This document shows positions 1,939 through 24,310 of a DNA stretch of 27,965 nt, piece after piece. Positions within the stretch are counted from its first letter, which is position 1. Each line of letters opens with the position of its first letter. The notes beneath the pieces are model-generated. The model did not search any database. It saw nothing but the letters and a program-made list of their open reading frames with translations, and was not told where the DNA came from. A program made the position numbers and the translations under genes. Source of the DNA: a virus. The DNA is taken from positions 1 through 27,965 of the IMG/VR virus record IMGVR_UViG_3300027734_004120, one strand, 5' to 3'.

Positions 1939-3498
1939 TCAGACCGGGCTCTGGCTGCCGGAGGCCACGCGGAGGCCCTCGACGAGGACCGCGGCCGAGT
2001 GCTCCACGAGCGTGAAGTCGTGCCACGAGTACGCGTCGTACCGGTAGGAGTCCGTCTCCTGCTCGTACTTGAGGTATTGCTGGAAGCCGCCCTCGCCCGA
2101 GTCCGGCGCCGCCACCGACACGCGCCACTGGAGGTTGGCGGGGGTCGTGAGGAAGAGCGAGGAGCCCTGGTAGAGCGTGTTGCCCGCACCAGCGGCCGCG
2201 CCGCTGTACGTGCCAGCCGTGAGGCCGAGCGTCGAGAGACCGTTCGCCGCGCCAGCCGCGACCACCACCGAGGAGCCAGCACCCGAGGTCGGGGAGGTCA
2301 GCTCGATGCGGCCGAACTGGTCAACACGGGCCACGTCGCGGTACGCCGCGCCCTCAGCAGCAACGAGCGCGTCGTTGATGATGTTGGCGACGCGCTGCGC
2401 GGAGATCTGGCGATCCATGAGCGAAGCGTCGTTGACGTGCGGGAACGTGATCGTGTTGGCGCCAGTACCGTCGACGTTGAGGCTGATCTGGTAACCATCG
2501 GTCGGGAACTTGAAGTAGTCCGCCTTGGTGCCCAGCGCGCGACCCGGGACAGCCGTAGTGATCGTATTGATCGCGTCGTCCGTGGGGAGCAGCGGGATCG
2601 GCCAGAACTGAACGCCGAGGGGAGCGGGGGCCGCACCCGTGAGCGCCATCGAGGCCTCGAGCGCGCCACCGGCGCGAACGCTCATCGCCTGGATCCAGTC
2701 GAGGATGACAGCCGGGTTGCAGAAGAAGTACTTCTCACGCGGCATGTAGAGCTTCGGGAAGCTCCGCATCATCTCGAAGAACAGAGGGAGCTCGACGAAG
2801 TTGCCATCGAAGTGGATGCGCGTCGAACGAGCGCGCATCTGCTTCAGCCAGCCGTCGTTCGCCGACAAGAGGGCCGTGCGGTCATCGCTCGGGACGATGT
2901 CGTCGTCGCCGAGGAGGGCCATCTGCTCAAGGTCGTTCACCATGAGCGGCATGACGCGGCTCATGAGGAGGTCCTGGAAGCGGTCCTCGTAGAACGTCTG
3001 GTAGACCATCTCCTTCGAGAAGGTGATGAAGGTCTGCATCTTCTTGAGCTGCCACTCGTTGCTGACGCGCATCGAGAGGGGCTTCGAGGACGGCCCGGGG
3101 TGCGCCGTGAACTCCGACGCGGGGCGCATGACAGTGCCGCCAGCGAAGGTGTTCTCAACGCGGCCCGACATCTTGCCGCCGCGGTGAACGATGAAGTCGA
3201 TGCCGGGGCCACCAACCGCCGACGGGGGGAGACCGCCCGTGGGGAAAGCGACGTTCGGGTAGGTCGAGGGCGCGTTCGGCGGGTAGAAGGCCGACGGACC
3301 CTGCGGCTGCCACTGCGCCGACAGCTTGGGCGAGAGCAGCGTCGACTGCGCCCGCATGAACTGGAAGGCTGCCTCCTGAACCTCGGGGTCCAGACGGCCA
3401 CCCGCGTTGAGGTCAGACGTGCTGCCCTCAACCAAGTACGCCTTCGCGATCTTCTCACGGTCCTTGAGGCCGTGGTGCTTCCACATATTGAACGACAT
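1939..3498 (-). CDS. Major capsid protein (HK97-fold type)
   Basis: This 519-aa protein starts at an ATG with a strong GAGGAG ribosome site. It follows the portal, protease and core genes, the canonical slot for the major head protein. The N-terminal third (KHHGLKDREKIAKAYL, the Pro-rich stretch near 65-95 and the FITFSKEMVYQTFYEDRF region) resembles capsid proteins of large-headed phages encoded after XkdF-type proteases. Residues about 330-455 are Gly/Ala/Thr-rich and end in TYSGAAAGAGNTLYQ before LTTPANLQWRVSV resumes. This looks like an inserted domain that would sit on the outside of the shell. The C-terminus (YRYDAYSWHDFTLVEHSAAVLVEG) is typical of the final strand region. The capsid role rests on context and overall character; I cannot test the fold here. 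Confidence 0.8.
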   Translation of the reverse strand: MSFNMWKHHGLKDREKIAKAYLVEGSTSDLNAGGRLDPEVQEAAFQFMRAQSTLLSPKLSAQWQPQGPSAFYPPNAPSTYPNVAFPTGGLPPSAVGGPGIDFIVHRGGKMSGRVENTFAGGTVMRPASEFTAHPGPSSKPLSMRVSNEWQLKKMQTFITFSKEMVYQTFYEDRFQDLLMSRVMPLMVNDLEQMALLGDDDIVPSDDRTALLSANDGWLKQMRARSTRIHFDGNFVELPLFFEMMRSFPKLYMPREKYFFCNPAVILDWIQAMSVRAGGALEASMALTGAAPAPLGVQFWPIPLLPTDDAINTITTAVPGRALGTKADYFKFPTDGYQISLNVDGTGANTITFPHVNDASLMDRQISAQRVANIINDALVAAEGAAYRDVARVDQFGRIELTSPTSGAGSSVVVAAGAANGLSTLGLTAGTYSGAAAGAGNTLYQGSSLFLTTPANLQWRVSVAAPDSGEGGFQQYLKYEQETDSYRYDAYSWHDFTLVEHSAAVLVEGLRVASGSQSPV

Positions 3499-3509
3499 GG
3501 CTTTTCTCC

Positions 3510-5702
3510 TCAGAGGGCGTAGGTGGTCTGACGCCGCGCGTGCTGCAGGTAGGCATCCTGCGGGCTGGTGGTTGTGGGCTCGTTGCTCTTGGTCGTGTAC
3601 GTGGCGCTGCCAGTCGCCTCGAGGCTGTCAGAGACAGGTCGAGCCGGGAGGGCAATGCCCTTGGCCACAGGAGCGGGAGCCGCTTCCGGCTCATCGCCCT
3701 GCACATCAATCTGCATCTGGCCATCCACGACCGTCACCTTGAAGTTCTTCTTGGCAGCGACGAGCGCGGCCATGATGTCGGCGGGGTTAACCGCCGTCTT
3801 CTCGGTGACAACCGCCGGCTCAGCCGACGCAGCCTCGGGCTCCGGTGCAGCAACCTCAGGCTCCTTGTGAGCCTCGGCCTGCTCCGAAGCGACGGTCTCC
3901 GCAGGAGCAGCCTCGGCCTCAGCCGCAGGCTCCTCCTCGGACTTCTTCACCGCCTCTTCGGGCGGGGAAGGCGCGACAGTCTCTTCGACGTCCATCTTTT
4001 TCTCCCGTGCAAGCCGGCTCTCGTATTGAGCCTTGAGTCGCTTCGTAAAGTTCATAGCAGCAGTTCCGCCCCAAAGCAACCACGCAACGAAACCGGGGCT
4101 TTCGCTTCCAACACGGTCATCCTGCCCAGCCGTCCAGTCCACACGGTGGCGTGCAAACCAAGCTGGGCCCTTGACGACCGCCCAGTATTCGGGCATCGGG
4201 TCGCCGGCAGCCATACGACGGGCGCGGCGGATGGTTTCTTCCACCAGCCCATCGCCACCGCGGCCTTCTTCGTAGGCGCGCAAACCACGACGCGCAGCGG
4301 AGCGCATCGCGGCATTCGGGCGGAGCTCGTCAGAGCTGATCAGGCTTCCGCCAGGGAGCTTGCCTTCGCTGTCCGAGACCTTGGTGACCACGTCGTAGTC
4401 GACGCCATCATCCACAAGCTCAAACTCGGGGAGCGAGTCATTGAACCGCTCGTAGTTGTCGAGGTCCTGGTCCTCGAAGAACCGGAGAACCTCAACCTCT
4501 GCCTCGACAAGCTCGTCCTCGCCGCCAGCTTCGATGATGGTCACGATGCTGTCGTCCGTGAACGACTTCTGCGTGGAAGCGGGGTGCGACTTGGGAAGCA
4601 AGTCAGTGTCGAACGGTCGGCGCGGGAACTTCCCAGTGCCGAGAGCAGCGAGGAAAACGCGAACACGCGCAAACGCCCATTGCTCAGCCGAGCTGACGTT
4701 AGGACGAACGCTGGAAGGGTTCGAGCGGTAAGCGCCGATGCCGCGATTGTAGACCTGACGGAGCATCTCCATCGTGGCCTGCTTGCCCTCGTCAGGGTAC
4801 TTCGCGTTGTGCTCCGTCATCATGTCGCGGACGCGAGACTCGACGGACTCTGGCAAAGCCTTCTGGAGCTCTTCGGAGCTCATCGCCGGCAGCTTCTTCA
4901 GGTCGGAGAAGGGCTTCAAAATCCGTCGGTCAGACGGAAGCCACTCATCCTCAGCAGTCTCGTAGTACGAGAGCAGCGTGGCGACAGGGTTCGCGGCCGT
5001 GGCCTCGAAAACCTCACTGGTACCACGAAGCTGAACCTTGCCAGACCGACGAATGCCGATGACGCGGCCCTTGCCGATCATCGGGGGGCCGGGAGGCTTG
5101 GGGATCTCGTAAGAGACGAAATCACCCACAGACAGGTCCTCAGCCTTCTTCATGTCGTCGGGCTTCCAGCCCGCTTCCACTTCCACCGCGGCCCCAACGT
5201 CGGACTCGATGGAAACGTCGCGCGGCCCAAAGGAGACCGGCATTTCCATCAGGTCGGTGATGTCGAAGGAACCATCGGGAAGCTGGGTGTACGACGCCAT
5301 GAAGTACATGGGGTTCGGCGCTTCCGCCGCCATGATGGCGTCAACGAACTTCGGGCCCATGAGGACGCGGTCGCGGTAAATGCGAATCGCGTCAACGTAG
5401 TAGTCCTGTGTGCTCTTCGTCTTGACGAGGATCTTCTTGCGGATAGTGTCGAGGAGGCGATTGATGACGTCACCAATCACCTCGTTCTCGCTGGAAGCGA
5501 AGAACTTGGAGACGAACTCCGGCAGGTCATCCGCGTTCTTGATGACGGTGAAGCCCTCGTGATTGCGGCTCTCCGCCTCAGTCAGGATCGCAGGCTCGGT
5601 GACGAGCGAGACCTCTTCAGGGTCAATGTTGCTCAGGCGATGCCGGCGCGCTTTTTCGACGCGGACGGCATCCTTGGCAATCGAGCTGAAATCGAAGTCC
5701 AT
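3510..5702 (-). CDS. Prohead core/scaffold-like multidomain protein
   Basis: This 730-aa protein starts at the ATG at 5702, behind a clear GAGGAG site and 2 nt after the protease stop. Visible parts are: residues 1-170, with VSLVTEPAI near 31-39; a small barrel-like segment at 187-246 (SVGDFVSYE, KGRVIGIRRSGKVQLRG), similar to Tudor/DUF2945-type domains; residues 298-372 (HNAKYPDEGKQAT, QWAFARVRVFLAALGTGKF, FDTDLLPKSHP), a conserved phage head-module domain; residues 470-562 (RRARRMAAGDPMPEYW, WFARHRVDWTA, FVAWLLWGG), a second such domain; and an acidic Ala/Glu/Pro-rich tail at 572-640. The acidic tail and the position between protease and capsid suggest an internal scaffold cleaved during maturation. 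The domain recognition is from memory and the role is inferred. Confidence 0.65.
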   Translation of the reverse strand: MDFDFSSIAKDAVRVEKARRHRLSNIDPEEVSLVTEPAILTEAESRNHEGFTVIKNADDLPEFVSKFFASSENEVIGDVINRLLDTIRKKILVKTKSTQDYYVDAIRIYRDRVLMGPKFVDAIMAAEAPNPMYFMASYTQLPDGSFDITDLMEMPVSFGPRDVSIESDVGAAVEVEAGWKPDDMKKAEDLSVGDFVSYEIPKPPGPPMIGKGRVIGIRRSGKVQLRGTSEVFEATAANPVATLLSYYETAEDEWLPSDRRILKPFSDLKKLPAMSSEELQKALPESVESRVRDMMTEHNAKYPDEGKQATMEMLRQVYNRGIGAYRSNPSSVRPNVSSAEQWAFARVRVFLAALGTGKFPRRPFDTDLLPKSHPASTQKSFTDDSIVTIIEAGGEDELVEAEVEVLRFFEDQDLDNYERFNDSLPEFELVDDGVDYDVVTKVSDSEGKLPGGSLISSDELRPNAAMRSAARRGLRAYEEGRGGDGLVEETIRRARRMAAGDPMPEYWAVVKGPAWFARHRVDWTAGQDDRVGSESPGFVAWLLWGGTAAMNFTKRLKAQYESRLAREKKMDVEETVAPSPPEEAVKKSEEEPAAEAEAAPAETVASEQAEAHKEPEVAAPEPEAASAEPAVVTEKTAVNPADIMAALVAAKKNFKVTVVDGQMQIDVQGDEPEAAPAPVAKGIALPARPVSDSLEATGSATYTTKSNEPTTTSPQDAYLQHARRQTTYAL

Positions 5703-5704
5703 CG

Positions 5705-6157
5705 TCACTCCTCGTAGGTTCTCTTGGCCATTGCGCCAATCGAGAACCCTTTGATTACGCCATTTTGAACTGCAGTCCACACATCTTCGTCAAGCACTTT
5801 CACCGCGAGCATCCAGCTCCCCTTAGGGATCACGATGTCGCCGTTGCCCTTGTCGTCTGGCAGGGCAGCGCGATTATCTCGGGGAATCGTCTCTTCGATG
5901 GTGGTCACATAGGATTCGACGACAGGGAACCGTGACCGTGCGCGGTCGAAGTCCCTGTGCATGAAGCCCGTTGTGGCGTTGCCCTCAACGTACTTCAGCA
6001 TGAAGCGGTGAGCCGCCTCTTCGATGTCCATCGCCGAGATGACGGAGCCCTGCCGGTCCTCAATATCTGGACGCAGCACAGGCCCCTTCACGACGCGTTG
6101 CGCGTCGCTCGTCTTCATGATTGGAACGAAGAGGGAGACCTTGTTCATGTCGGGCAT
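5705..6157 (-). CDS. XkdF-like prohead serine protease (Peptidase_S78_2 type)
   Basis: This 150-aa protein has the features of the PBSX XkdF family: VVKGPVLRPDIEDRQG near 22-37, EEAAHRFM near 46-53, GFMHRDF with a candidate catalytic His67, VVESYV with candidate Ser82, and the ending GSWMLAVKVLDEDVWTAVQ then GVIKGFSIGAMA. Such enzymes degrade the scaffold and trim capsid proteins during head maturation. It lies between the portal and the core protein, as expected. The downstream core gene begins 3 nt past its end and reads directly on. An internal ATG (MNKV, 6148) is an alternative start; neither has a strong ribosome site. The length is close to the usual size for a stand-alone protease of this type. 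Confidence 0.85.
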   Translation of the reverse strand: MPDMNKVSLFVPIMKTSDAQRVVKGPVLRPDIEDRQGSVISAMDIEEAAHRFMLKYVEGNATTGFMHRDFDRARSRFPVVESYVTTIEETIPRDNRAALPDDKGNGDIVIPKGSWMLAVKVLDEDVWTAVQNGVIKGFSIGAMAKRTYEE

Positions 6158-21128: not shown

Positions 21129-21374
21129 TCAGAAAGGGGTTGAGGGCGGCACATGCCCGAAGTCGCCGCTAAACGTCACTTGTTGGCCTCCCGTCGGCCG
21201 GTTCCAATGGGCATCCGCGGCGGCGACGGTTTCGGCGAAGGCGGCAATCGCCTGCTCGCGCTTCTCGAGTCTGGCCTTCAGTTGAGCGACTTCATCTTGA
21301 TAGGACTTCAGGAAGGCTTGAGTCTTGTTGAGTTGTTCGAGAAGGTCCGCTTCGCGGAGCTCATGTTCATTCAT
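21129..21374 (-). CDS. Small coiled-coil protein
   Basis: This 81-aa protein starts MNEHELREADLLEQLN at the ATG at 21374. That ATG overlaps the cytosine methyltransferase stop by ATGA and is preceded by GGAGG at a good distance; the ATG two codons upstream is too close to that site. Residues 5-50 form a coiled coil (LNKTQAFLKSYQDEVAQLKA, RLEKREQAIAAFAETV). The C-terminus is Gly/Pro-rich. Function unknown. Confidence 0.65.
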   Translation of the reverse strand: MNEHELREADLLEQLNKTQAFLKSYQDEVAQLKARLEKREQAIAAFAETVAAADAHWNRPTGGQQVTFSGDFGHVPPSTPF

Positions 21375-22260
21375 AGCCATCCTCCTCTTCGGGCCAGGAT
21401 TCGGAATGCAGTTGCGGCGGCGAGGGGCACTTGGCCATTTCCAATGGCGCGGAGTCGGGCGCGGCGAGTGTTCTTTGGAGCCACGTCCTCTGGGATTCTC
21501 GAATGTCCTGGTAGCAGTTGGTCCAGCCCAGAGGCCAGTTCATCAACCACTCGACCCACGTTGGGTTCAGCTTGCCACCAGCCATGGCGTTGAGGCACTT
21601 CGATTGCTGGCTGTCGCCCTGCAGGCGATAGTTGTTCTCGCTGCTCGTGGGGGTCGGCAATCGACCTGTCCCGCCATCCCCCCGAACCCAGTCCGTCAGG
21701 CTGATGCCAGGATTGGCTTTGCTCCCCGCATTCCGACTCCCCGACGCTTTCGCGTCGCCGGCCGTGGGCGTGGGTATGCGCGACGATCCAGATCCTTTTG
21801 CGGAGGTGGGGGGCGCCAACATCGGACGCTCCCAGCACGCCCCACTCCACATCATACCCGAGGGCGGCAAGATCTCGCAGGACGACTTCAAGCCCGAGCT
21901 TTTGGAGACGCGGCGAGTTTTCAGCGAAGACAAATCGAGGTCGTACCTCTCCCACGATTCTGGACATTTCTTTCCAGAGTCCAGACCTGGGTCCAGAGAT
22001 TCCGGTTCCGGTTCCTGCGCTGGATATATCTTGGCAGGGAAAGCCGCCAGATATGACGTCAACACGGCCTCGCCATGCTCTTCCGTCAAAGGTGCGCACG
22101 TCATCCCAGACAGGATACGGGGGAAGCGAGCCGTCATTTTGCCGTGCGAGAAGAACGGCGGAGGCGAACCGGTCGTTCTCGACGGCGCAGATGGTCTTCC
22201 ATCCGAGAAGGTGACTGGAGAGTAGGCCTCCACCAGCGCCCGCGAAAAGAGCCAGCTCAT
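21367..22260 (-). CDS. Overlapping-frame protein within the C5 methyltransferase gene
   Basis: This 297-aa frame starts at an ATG overlapping the upstream stop (ATGA), only 4 nt from the methyltransferase GTG, and is shifted one base from the enzyme frame. It has no stops over 891 nt. It begins MSWLFSRALVEAYSPVTFSD and contains PPSGMMWSGACWERPMLAPP, two PTPT blocks (163-166 and 202-205) and LNPTWVEWLMNWPLGWTN at 231-248. I recognise these as features of a family of phage proteins found with this methyltransferase type (WPTP blocks and an NPxWVEWLMGWPxGW motif). Function unknown. Whether both frames are translated cannot be settled here; a start-site choice between GTG and ATG may set the ratio. 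Confidence 0.6.
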   Translation of the reverse strand: MSWLFSRALVEAYSPVTFSDGRPSAPSRTTGSPPPFFSHGKMTARFPRILSGMTCAPLTEEHGEAVLTSYLAAFPAKIYPAQEPEPESLDPGLDSGKKCPESWERYDLDLSSLKTRRVSKSSGLKSSCEILPPSGMMWSGACWERPMLAPPTSAKGSGSSRIPTPTAGDAKASGSRNAGSKANPGISLTDWVRGDGGTGRLPTPTSSENNYRLQGDSQQSKCLNAMAGGKLNPTWVEWLMNWPLGWTNCYQDIRESQRTWLQRTLAAPDSAPLEMAKCPSPPQLHSESWPEEEDGYE

Positions 22261-22264
22261 TCAC
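21371..22264 (-). CDS. DNA (cytosine-5) methyltransferase
   Basis: This 297-aa protein starts at a GTG that overlaps the upstream stop (GTGAATGA). Motif I is LALFAGAGGG at 4-13, motif IV is GGFPCQDIS at 73-81 with catalytic Cys77, motif VI is ENSP at 115-118, motif VIII is APHLRKRIWIVAH, and motif X is RLRAIGNGQVPLAAA at the C-terminus. All parts needed for a C5 enzyme are visible. It should transfer methyl groups from SAM to cytosines, probably protecting phage DNA. The variable target-recognition region between motifs VIII and X is short. Almost its whole length is overlapped by another open frame on the same strand that also looks like a real protein. Frame integrity argues that the enzyme is functional. 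Confidence 0.88.
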   Translation of the reverse strand: MNELALFAGAGGGLLSSHLLGWKTICAVENDRFASAVLLARQNDGSLPPYPVWDDVRTFDGRAWRGRVDVISGGFPCQDISSAGTGTGISGPRSGLWKEMSRIVGEVRPRFVFAENSPRLQKLGLEVVLRDLAALGYDVEWGVLGASDVGAPHLRKRIWIVAHTHAHGRRRESVGESECGEQSQSWHQPDGLGSGGWRDRSIADPHEQREQLSPAGRQPAIEVPQRHGWWQAEPNVGRVVDELASGLDQLLPGHSRIPEDVAPKNTRRARLRAIGNGQVPLAAATAFRILARRGGWL

Positions 22265-22637
22265 GGTTGCCCAGCAAGCGCATCGCGCGGACCTTGCCCT
22301 CATAGTAATATTTGTCGTCTTCAGTGCAGTCGTCATGCTCGACGTACCAACGAAGAGCTTCTTCAATCTCCTGGCTCTTGGCGACATCCTTCAGCAGTTG
22401 CTGGATTGTCGCGAGTTGCTCGCAAACGAGCTCCAGTGTGCTTCGTTGAACCTCTGGGACGTCCTTGGTTTCCTCGTTATCGTACAGCCCCATTTTAATC
22501 AGCCGAGACTTGGCATGGCGATTGGGAGAGGTTTTGCCATTGACCCAGCGCCATACGGCGCTCTGGTCGGTCCCCACCATGTGCGCGACGTCCTTGATGG
22601 AAAGACCGCGAGCCTTCATCCTGTCGATCAGGAGCAT
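22257..22637 (-). CDS. HTH (XRE-like) transcriptional regulator
   Basis: This 126-aa protein has a start with GGAGG 5 nt before the ATG. The N-terminus holds a helix-turn-helix: LIDRMKARGLSIKDVAHMVG, then TDQSAVWRWVNGKTSPN. After this come a helical region (STLELVCEQLATIQQLLKDV) and an acidic segment (YVEHDDCTEDDKYYYEGK). Such proteins are phage repressors or Cro-like regulators. It overlaps the preceding regulator gene and its stop overlaps the starts of the cytosine methyltransferase and its overlapping frame, so all are probably one transcript. The target operator is not known. Confidence 0.75.
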   Translation of the reverse strand: MLLIDRMKARGLSIKDVAHMVGTDQSAVWRWVNGKTSPNRHAKSRLIKMGLYDNEETKDVPEVQRSTLELVCEQLATIQQLLKDVAKSQEIEEALRWYVEHDDCTEDDKYYYEGKVRAMRLLGNRE

Positions 22638-23143: not shown

Positions 23144-23905
23144 TCACCAAAACGAGGCCTGCCTGGGCCTGGGTATGATTTCCCAGGTCATCTCGATGTA
23201 CTTTTCAACCCCGACATGCACACAAGCCGATTGGGAGTGGTCGCAAGGGTATAATTTCCCCTCGTACTTGGCTTCAAGGGTCCAGGACATCGAGTCAGAG
23301 GAGACTACTTGCTGGTGAACCTTTTGCAGCCCAGTCCGCTTTACCCCGAATAAGTGAAGTTTCAGCCCTGTCCCGCGAAACCGGTCAGTGACATCCAAAA
23401 GCTCCAAGGTCCGTTGCCTTCTGCAGACACTTCCGACGCCCACTCGAGGCTGCGCCTCCAAATCAATCCCTCGGGCCTGGTACATATCCAGGCATCGCGA
23501 ATAATCATCCGGCTCCCAGCCCTGGACCACAGGAATAAAAGGGAGCTCTGGGGCAAGCATGCGCAGGGCGATGTAGTTGTCGATGGTCAACTCTTGGTGA
23601 CGCTTGATAGTCAGCCCAGTTTTGGACAGCGCGAAGGGCTCGCACATCCAGTCCTGCGGAGCAGCAAAGTCGAGCTTCCCGATTTCCTCCACATACCGAC
23701 GCGTGGCATCGACGTACTCCTTCGGAGTCGTCTGCCACGCCCCATTCATGGTGACCTCCGTGAACCCGCCAGAGTCAAGGGCCCAAGGAGCAAGGGCAGG
23801 AAGCCAGCCTCGAGTCCGTCTCAGCCGCCGATGAGAAACGAACATGGGGATTCGCAGGCGGTTGAGCCAGTAAGGCTCCGGCACTCCAAGATAGAAGGTT
23901 CGCAT
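23144..23905 (-). CDS. dpdA: DpdA-like 7-deazaguanine DNA modification protein (TGT-like)
   Basis: This 253-aa protein starts MRTFYLGVPEPYWLNR at the ATG at 23905; upstream in-frame codons are AT-rich and unlike the protein. It matches the phage DpdA family: MFVSHRRLRR at 21-30, ALDSGGFTEV at 42-51 (the DSGGF signature shared with tRNA-guanine transglycosylase), AAPQDWMCEP at 81-90, PVVQGW at 125-130, GVGSVCRRQ at 156-164, LFGVKRTGL near 185-193 and SSDSMSW at 202-208. DpdA swaps guanine in DNA for a 7-deazaguanine such as preQ0 or a derivative, blocking restriction enzymes. No preQ0-synthesis gene is visible in the window, so host-made precursor or genes elsewhere would be needed. It is the first gene of the minus-strand block. 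Confidence 0.85.
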   Translation of the reverse strand: MRTFYLGVPEPYWLNRLRIPMFVSHRRLRRTRGWLPALAPWALDSGGFTEVTMNGAWQTTPKEYVDATRRYVEEIGKLDFAAPQDWMCEPFALSKTGLTIKRHQELTIDNYIALRMLAPELPFIPVVQGWEPDDYSRCLDMYQARGIDLEAQPRVGVGSVCRRQRTLELLDVTDRFRGTGLKLHLFGVKRTGLQKVHQQVVSSDSMSWTLEAKYEGKLYPCDHSQSACVHVGVEKYIEMTWEIIPRPRQASFW

Positions 23906-23936
23906 CAAACCCAAGTATCGGGCAGCAGCGAGAATT

Positions 23937-23970
23937 GCAAGAAAAAAGAAGTAAGCGTGCAAGAAAAAAG
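23937..23970 (+). repeat. GCAAGAAAAAAG repeat copies 2 and 3, upstream of dpdA
   Basis: Two exact copies at 23937-23948 and 23959-23970, 22 nt apart (two helical turns), in the AT-rich leader of dpdA. The regular spacing suggests binding by one protein on the same face of the helix. Confidence 0.45.
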
Positions 23971-24310
23971 TAAAGTTAGTAATGATATTACGTAAGAGCC
24001 AGAAAAAAATCCAAAAAATATGAGGGCAATTATTTATCAAATCCAGGTGAGAAAGCCTGAGGGTACCCGCCACATTTTATTGGACGCCGAGGCAGGCGAA
24101 ATCAAAGGCGCCACACGGTGAGCTAGAAAATAAATGAGGGGGCCGGTCAGAAAATTGGAATAATTATCTGGGGTACGGCCATCCGCCCTGACGGCTAGCG
24201 CGCCACACTCACAAGGGCACCCCCCTTGTCAAGCGAAAGAAAACCACTACGACACGTCAGTGAAAACCCTGACAAGCCTACACACTAAACCGAGATCAGC
24301 CGGAAAAGCG

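Follow-up and report, generated by a model that had tools for sequence, protein, structure and literature searches.

What does a second reading frame encode when it runs, on the same strand, along almost the whole of a phage DNA methyltransferase gene? The question arises in a 27,965-nucleotide stretch of viral DNA (hereafter, the window; positions 1 to 27,965 of IMG/VR record IMGVR_UViG_3300027734_004120), a phage fragment in which portal, tail-fibre and polymerase–exonuclease-type genes were found. Two frames of 297 codons each lie on its minus strand: frame A (21371..22264), which begins with GTG, and frame B (21367..22260), which begins with ATG in the +1 frame. The original prediction had placed two such frames here, the second free of stops, starting at an ATGA junction and ending 4 nt past the first. 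The open reading frame coordinates bear this out, including the two ends (21367 and 21371), except that the frames have 890 nt in common and not the 891 nt first given. Long same-strand overlaps are rare and are usually of unrelated proteins. Here, the two frames seem to specify parts of the same enzyme: comparison of sequences makes it very probable that the locus is the source of both subunits of a split C5-cytosine DNA methyltransferase, alpha written in frame A and beta in the overlapping frame B. We favour this reading because frame B is open, the functional code switches from A to B along the gene, B-type sequence is found within single-chain relatives and motif X occurs in only one frame of a locus.

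Frame A contains C5 methyltransferase motifs I, IV (PCQ), VI (ENS), VIII and X in order. In an alignment of 50 homologues, the columns of motif I (LFAGAGGG, 22226..22249, minus strand, as are all features of the overlap) are invariant or near-invariant and those of motif IV (GGFPCQDIS, 22022..22048), with the catalytic cysteine, are invariant. The same holds for E115, N116 and P118 of motif VI (FAENSP, 21911..21928), for H153, R155, R157 and W159 of motif VIII (APHLRKRIWIVA, 21779..21814) and for G275, G277, Q278 and V279 of motif X (AIGNGQVP, 21425..21448). Frame A had been credited with every C5 motif, which is incorrect: its match to Pfam PF00145 (E = 8e-35) spans profile positions 5–168 of 324, covering motifs I–VIII only, and Pfam, AlphaFold and a motif search found neither motif IX nor a target-recognition domain on the same chain. 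AlphaFold modelled residues 1–170 and 278–297 with confidence as the C5 large domain, for which the best solved matches in Foldseek were M.HaeIII and M.HhaI. The linker between them (residues 175–255, 21500..21742) is disordered (pLDDT <50) and has no target-recognition domain. With the large domain confident and the linker disordered, frame A is predicted to have no small domain of its own. The linker appears to stay open so that frame A can reach motif X.

The two frames start almost together. The GTG of frame A and the ATG of frame B stand 4 nt apart in the junction GTGAATGAG (22256..22264), and the arrangement xTGAATGA, with the same spacing, was found in 126 of 162 distinct loci, in agreement with the predicted pair of neighbouring starts. 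Most of these xTGAATGA loci have a Shine–Dalgarno-like tetramer 2–5 nt ahead of the frame-A start. The frame-A open reading frame could be extended upstream to an ATG at 22387; its homologues begin at a GTG or ATG matching 22264. Upstream on the same strand is a helix-turn-helix (HTH)-domain gene (22257..22637; HTH_3, E = 3e-6), the TGA stop of which overlaps the ATG of frame B to form the ATGA junction, so that translation of frame B and of the HTH gene may be coupled.

We measured whether frame B is kept open by shuffling synonymous codons within each gene, which retains the enzyme sequence and the codon use, and counting stops in the other frames. Viral loci were fetched with frame B (28) or frame A (80), giving 93 distinct loci overall; 73 of them were found by frame A alone, and this enzyme-selected set is therefore unbiased towards frame B. 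In these 73 loci, which are not 73 independent events, frame B held 3 stops against 293.5 expected. The third (+2) frame showed no depletion (862 stops against 763.6). The expectation is equivalent to about 3–4 frame-B stops per gene, and a check for homologues with an intact enzyme and an interrupted second frame found 70 of the 73 loci without any frame-B stop, as expected if the overprinting is kept across phages. Taken together, all 93 viral loci held 15 frame-B stops where 371 were expected, with a single divergent locus (L021) accounting for 10 of them; the +2 frame had 1,062 stops against 948. The nearest homologue of the window (L002), taken alone, had 0 frame-B stops against 3.1 (P about 0.01). 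Bacterial matches to a frame-B query came mostly from Pseudomonadota, with some from Verrucomicrobiota and other phyla; the 69 bacterial loci held 3 frame-B stops against 242.8, in a set biased by having been fetched with frame B. Along the gene, depletion was already evident in the first 30 codons (1 stop against 26.2) and continued over codons 30–95 (0 against 65.7). Selection is keeping frame B open over its whole length, and, given the depletion within the first 95 codons, we conclude that it is probably read from its own early start beside that of frame A.

Long chance open reading frames are common in high-GC DNA, and the similarity of frame-B sequences over the first 160 codons partly follows the conservation of frame A. 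Frame B could on this account be untranslated, open through chance, GC content or codon bias, with its conservation a mere shadow of the enzyme frame. We regard this as scarcely credible: synonymous shuffling predicts hundreds of frame-B stops that are absent, stops in the third frame exceed the expectation, and in the recognition region the wobble belongs to frame B, as described below. A chance open frame was ruled out by the shuffling, and shadow conservation alone by this B-frame wobble together with low synonymous change in frame A at codons 100–145.

Pairs of related loci were compared by the codon position of their differences, a signal strong enough to map which frame is in charge where. 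Up to motif VIII, differences fell at frame-A positions 1, 2 and 3 in fractions of 0.26, 0.14 and 0.60, near those of flanking genes (0.22, 0.12 and 0.66). From motif VIII to the WVEWLMGWP block, which is the recognition region, the fractions were 0.68, 0.20 and 0.12. Position 1 of frame A is the third position of frame B, and the recognition region therefore evolves as frame-B code. The code switches: it is that of frame A up to motif VIII and that of frame B in the recognition region. Reduced synonymous change in the enzyme frame, which had been proposed as a check, was seen locally, as the four-fold synonymous change of frame A dropped from 0.47–0.51 at codons 75–100 to 0.11–0.28 at codons 100–145. 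Strongly constrained frame-B sequence thus begins at about residue 100; residues 100–145 of frame B (21826..21963) are the start of a conserved beta core that overlaps frame A before motif VIII. This agrees with the shorter frame B of distant phages (SG4 and Porphyromonas and Bacteroides phages), which lacks the MSWLFS start. Stop avoidance and purifying selection, the marks of a same-strand overlapping pair, were found in both frames.

Past the frame-A start, close homologues among viral loci L030–L109 often match at 85–95% up to motif VIII, about 490 nt in, beyond which the match is lost altogether. They also differ in how many WPTP-type blocks they have, mostly from 1 to 4. Recognition regions look as if they had been swapped as modules with both frames staying open.

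The frame-B product belongs to a recurrent family, as had been suggested from its MSWLFSxALVEE start, its WPTP blocks and an NPxWVEWLMGWPxGW motif. Pfam gave no match for frame B. The window protein matched PHROG_1008, annotated as 'DNA methyltransferase' (E = 1.2e-16), and small families of unknown function, and among 60 frame-B proteins PHROG_1008, PHROG_26627 and PHROG_27243 matched 60, 60 and 55, respectively. PHROG_35493, also of unknown function, matched 48 of the 60. On the strength of these counts, PHROG_26627, PHROG_27243 and PHROG_35493 are probably annotated pieces of the second frame; the PHROGs entries for PHROG_1008, PHROG_26627 and PHROG_27243 make no mention of its being the second frame of a methyltransferase gene. 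Its target-recognition region has PTPTA-type blocks (residues 160–229, 21574..21783) and evolves with B-frame wobble. It is followed by a block resembling motif IX (LNPTWVEWLMNWPLGWT, residues 231–247, 21520..21570), with the consensus LNPxWVEWLMGWPxGWT; in 60 frame-B homologues, M240 and P243 are invariant and most of L231–W242 is near-invariant. We named this block motif IX by homology to single-chain relatives and not by structure. AlphaFold modelled frame B alone poorly (mean pLDDT 57), and only the motif IX region scored high (about 85). Neither Foldseek with this low-confidence model nor a sequence search against solved structures gave a usable match for frame B. A poor fold in isolation suits a subunit that folds only on its partner and is not proof of one.

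The identity of frame B comes from relatives in which the enzyme is a single chain. Mycobacterium phage Batiatus gp66 and Gordonia phage Ailee gp4 contain motifs I–VIII, PTPxA blocks and motif X in one frame, and they carry FPEWMMGWPAGWVT or FAEWMMMLPAGWVT, an EWMMGxPxGW-type block. They resemble the window in motifs and blocks and differ from it in being one protein with no end-to-end overlap. A frame-A profile matched both ends of gp66 and gp4, and a frame-B profile matched the piece between motifs VIII and X; the latter match was short and moderate (E about 1e-7, against 0.8 or worse for shuffled controls). PHROG_1008 matched both frame B of the window and residues 168–437 of gp66. A sequence search of gp66 against solved structures, meant to place motif IX, gave an alignment that ended short of that motif. 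In Mycobacterium phage Pioneer and Gordonia phage GordDuk1, frame A carries motifs I–VIII and frame B the recognition region and motifs IX and X, and the frames overlap. By homology, these relatives identify frame B as the portion of a C5 methyltransferase that holds target recognition and motif IX.

Frame B might instead encode a separate regulator, an inhibitor or activator that stands outside the active enzyme, and the original prediction had likewise proposed a partner that modulates the methyltransferase. The first 100 or so residues of frame B, weakly constrained apart from their openness, have no counterpart in the single-chain enzymes, and the four-fold synonymous rates of frame A are somewhat low over codons 2–75 (0.17–0.36), so this part may do something else. 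We consider a regulator very improbable nonetheless: single-chain methyltransferases contain B-type sequence as an integral stretch from motif VIII to motif X, frame B can take over motif X, and frame A is without a small domain. On this evidence, frame B is the part of the enzyme that frame A lacks, with its recognition region and motif IX, rather than an accessory to it.

Movement of motif X (GNGQVP-type) was scored in 92 loci. It was found only in frame A in 72 loci, and in the variants L017 and L042; only in frame B in 15 loci, in L022 and, after a single stop, in L026; in frame A past one stop in L097; and in both frames in 0 of the 92. The WVEWLMGWP-type block was in frame B and never in frame A, with L021 the one exception, as a frame change there fuses both. 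Motif X behaves as part of one shared enzyme. Where frame B holds motif X, frame A often ends shortly past motif VIII, and its recognition region held 31 frame-A stops against 75.5 expected from shuffled B codons. Where frame A holds it, there were 0 stops against 159.9, a figure partly built in, as this class is defined by frame A being open to motif X; the informative part is the contrast between the classes.

These data also bear on a different account of the locus, in which two programmed frameshifts, from A to B past motif VIII and back from B to A ahead of motif X, yield a single polypeptide. In its favour, the gene does pass from functional A code to functional B code, true single-chain versions exist in some phages (such as Batiatus gp66), and a G9 run lies at the A-to-B junction of L021. 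Frameshifting, however, needs no open frame B upstream of the recognition region, where codons 2–95 (three bins summed) held 1 stop against 92 expected, and no open frame A through the recognition region, where it is open whenever it leads to motif X; frame B, moreover, has its own conserved ATG. We therefore think it very unlikely that frameshifting accounts for the locus, and we retain the split-subunit reading.

Three observations concern loci that depart from the layout of the window. In L021 (2701–3621), the G9 run lies near codon 90, exactly where frame A becomes B-type, and the rest of frame A continues in another frame; the run may represent slippage, phase variation or a sequencing error. 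In Mycobacterium phage Llama (L113), genes 74/75 are related to SG4 gp64, but a frame change has split the methyltransferase into these two genes and has broken frame B too. Loci with motif X in frame B can have an HNH-endonuclease-like open reading frame in the third frame between motifs IX and X, with frame B open across it (L003, L004, L006, L008, L010, L012, L014, L015, L018, L019, L022, L025 and L027; for example, L015:3836–4183 and L010:3674–4021), such that three frames are used in turn. The four of these that we tested matched Pfam HNH at E = 0.0007–0.0085, below the curated cut-off.

In the mechanism that we propose, alpha would supply the S-adenosylmethionine (SAM)-binding catalytic large domain with its catalytic cysteine, running from motifs I–VIII through the disordered linker to motif X. 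The second half of beta would supply the small domain absent from alpha, made up of the target-recognition region and motif IX. Both subunits would be translated from the neighbouring starts on one mRNA and would assemble into a single methyltransferase, the activity of which may serve to protect the DNA of the phage or to mark it. Next to the methyltransferase copy of the window, no restriction enzyme was seen.

In M.EcoHK31I, the gene of the larger subunit also encodes the smaller one, in an alternative frame. The window shares this property, its proposed second subunit lying in another frame of the same gene. M.EcoHK31I (YGGCCR) has motifs I–VIII and X on the larger polypeptide and motif IX on the smaller (PMC3404938), and M.AquI has motifs I–VIII on alpha and part of the recognition region with motifs IX–X on beta (PMC3404938); the two are natural precedents for split C5 methyltransferases (PMC3404938; PMC3439449). 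The window has the former layout, the first of its two predicted chains bearing motifs I–VIII and X and the second bearing motif IX. Unlike in M.EcoHK31I, frame B of the window is as long as frame A, starts 4 nt later and spans the whole gene, and its family writes the recognition region in B code, whereas the predicted recognition domain of M.EcoHK31I was put on the larger subunit. The context differs as well, as these are phage or prophage loci, and the likeness is one of motif layout; searches of plasmids and E. coli identified no relative of M.EcoHK31I. Loci whose motif X lies in frame B (L003, L004, L010, L025, L029, Pioneer and GordDuk1) share the M.AquI motif split, although in the viral loci the parts overlap across most of frame A. 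The window itself is not of this type, as its motif X lies in frame A, compared with frame B at at least 15 other loci. By analogy, the case may be seen as extending the M.EcoHK31I type to a second frame that is as long as the first and holds the recognition region. We found no description of a phage overlap of this kind in the open-access literature.

With less assurance, we lean towards a wider view: that an enzyme family widespread among phages builds one active site from two domains, which two frames of the same DNA encode end to end. Selection would be handed over from A to B at the domain boundary, motif X would move between frames and recognition modules would be swapped with both frames open; the roughly 100 N-terminal residues of frame B may add a function absent from known C5 methyltransferases. 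The split-subunit reading would explain a phage protein family that is common and of unknown function. It also suggests that the recognition half is missing from phage C5 methyltransferases of this type that are annotated as 'complete', so that an enzyme recoded in frame A with no regard for frame B may be inactive or misjudged. The family also offers an experimentally tractable model for the origin and persistence of dual-coding genes and for their resolution into one chain, as in Batiatus, or two.

Elsewhere in the window, a gene of the queuine tRNA-ribosyltransferase family (23144–24073, minus strand) matched PHROG_1279 (E = 4.6e-78) and, weakly, DpdA (E = 0.00044); the phage may perhaps also use 7-deazaguanine DNA modification. 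Two very long open frames on the plus strand, one of 725 amino acids (3540–5717) antisense to the open reading frame at 3510–5780 and one of 507 amino acids (1999–3522) antisense to that at 1939–3498, are probably an effect of codon composition.
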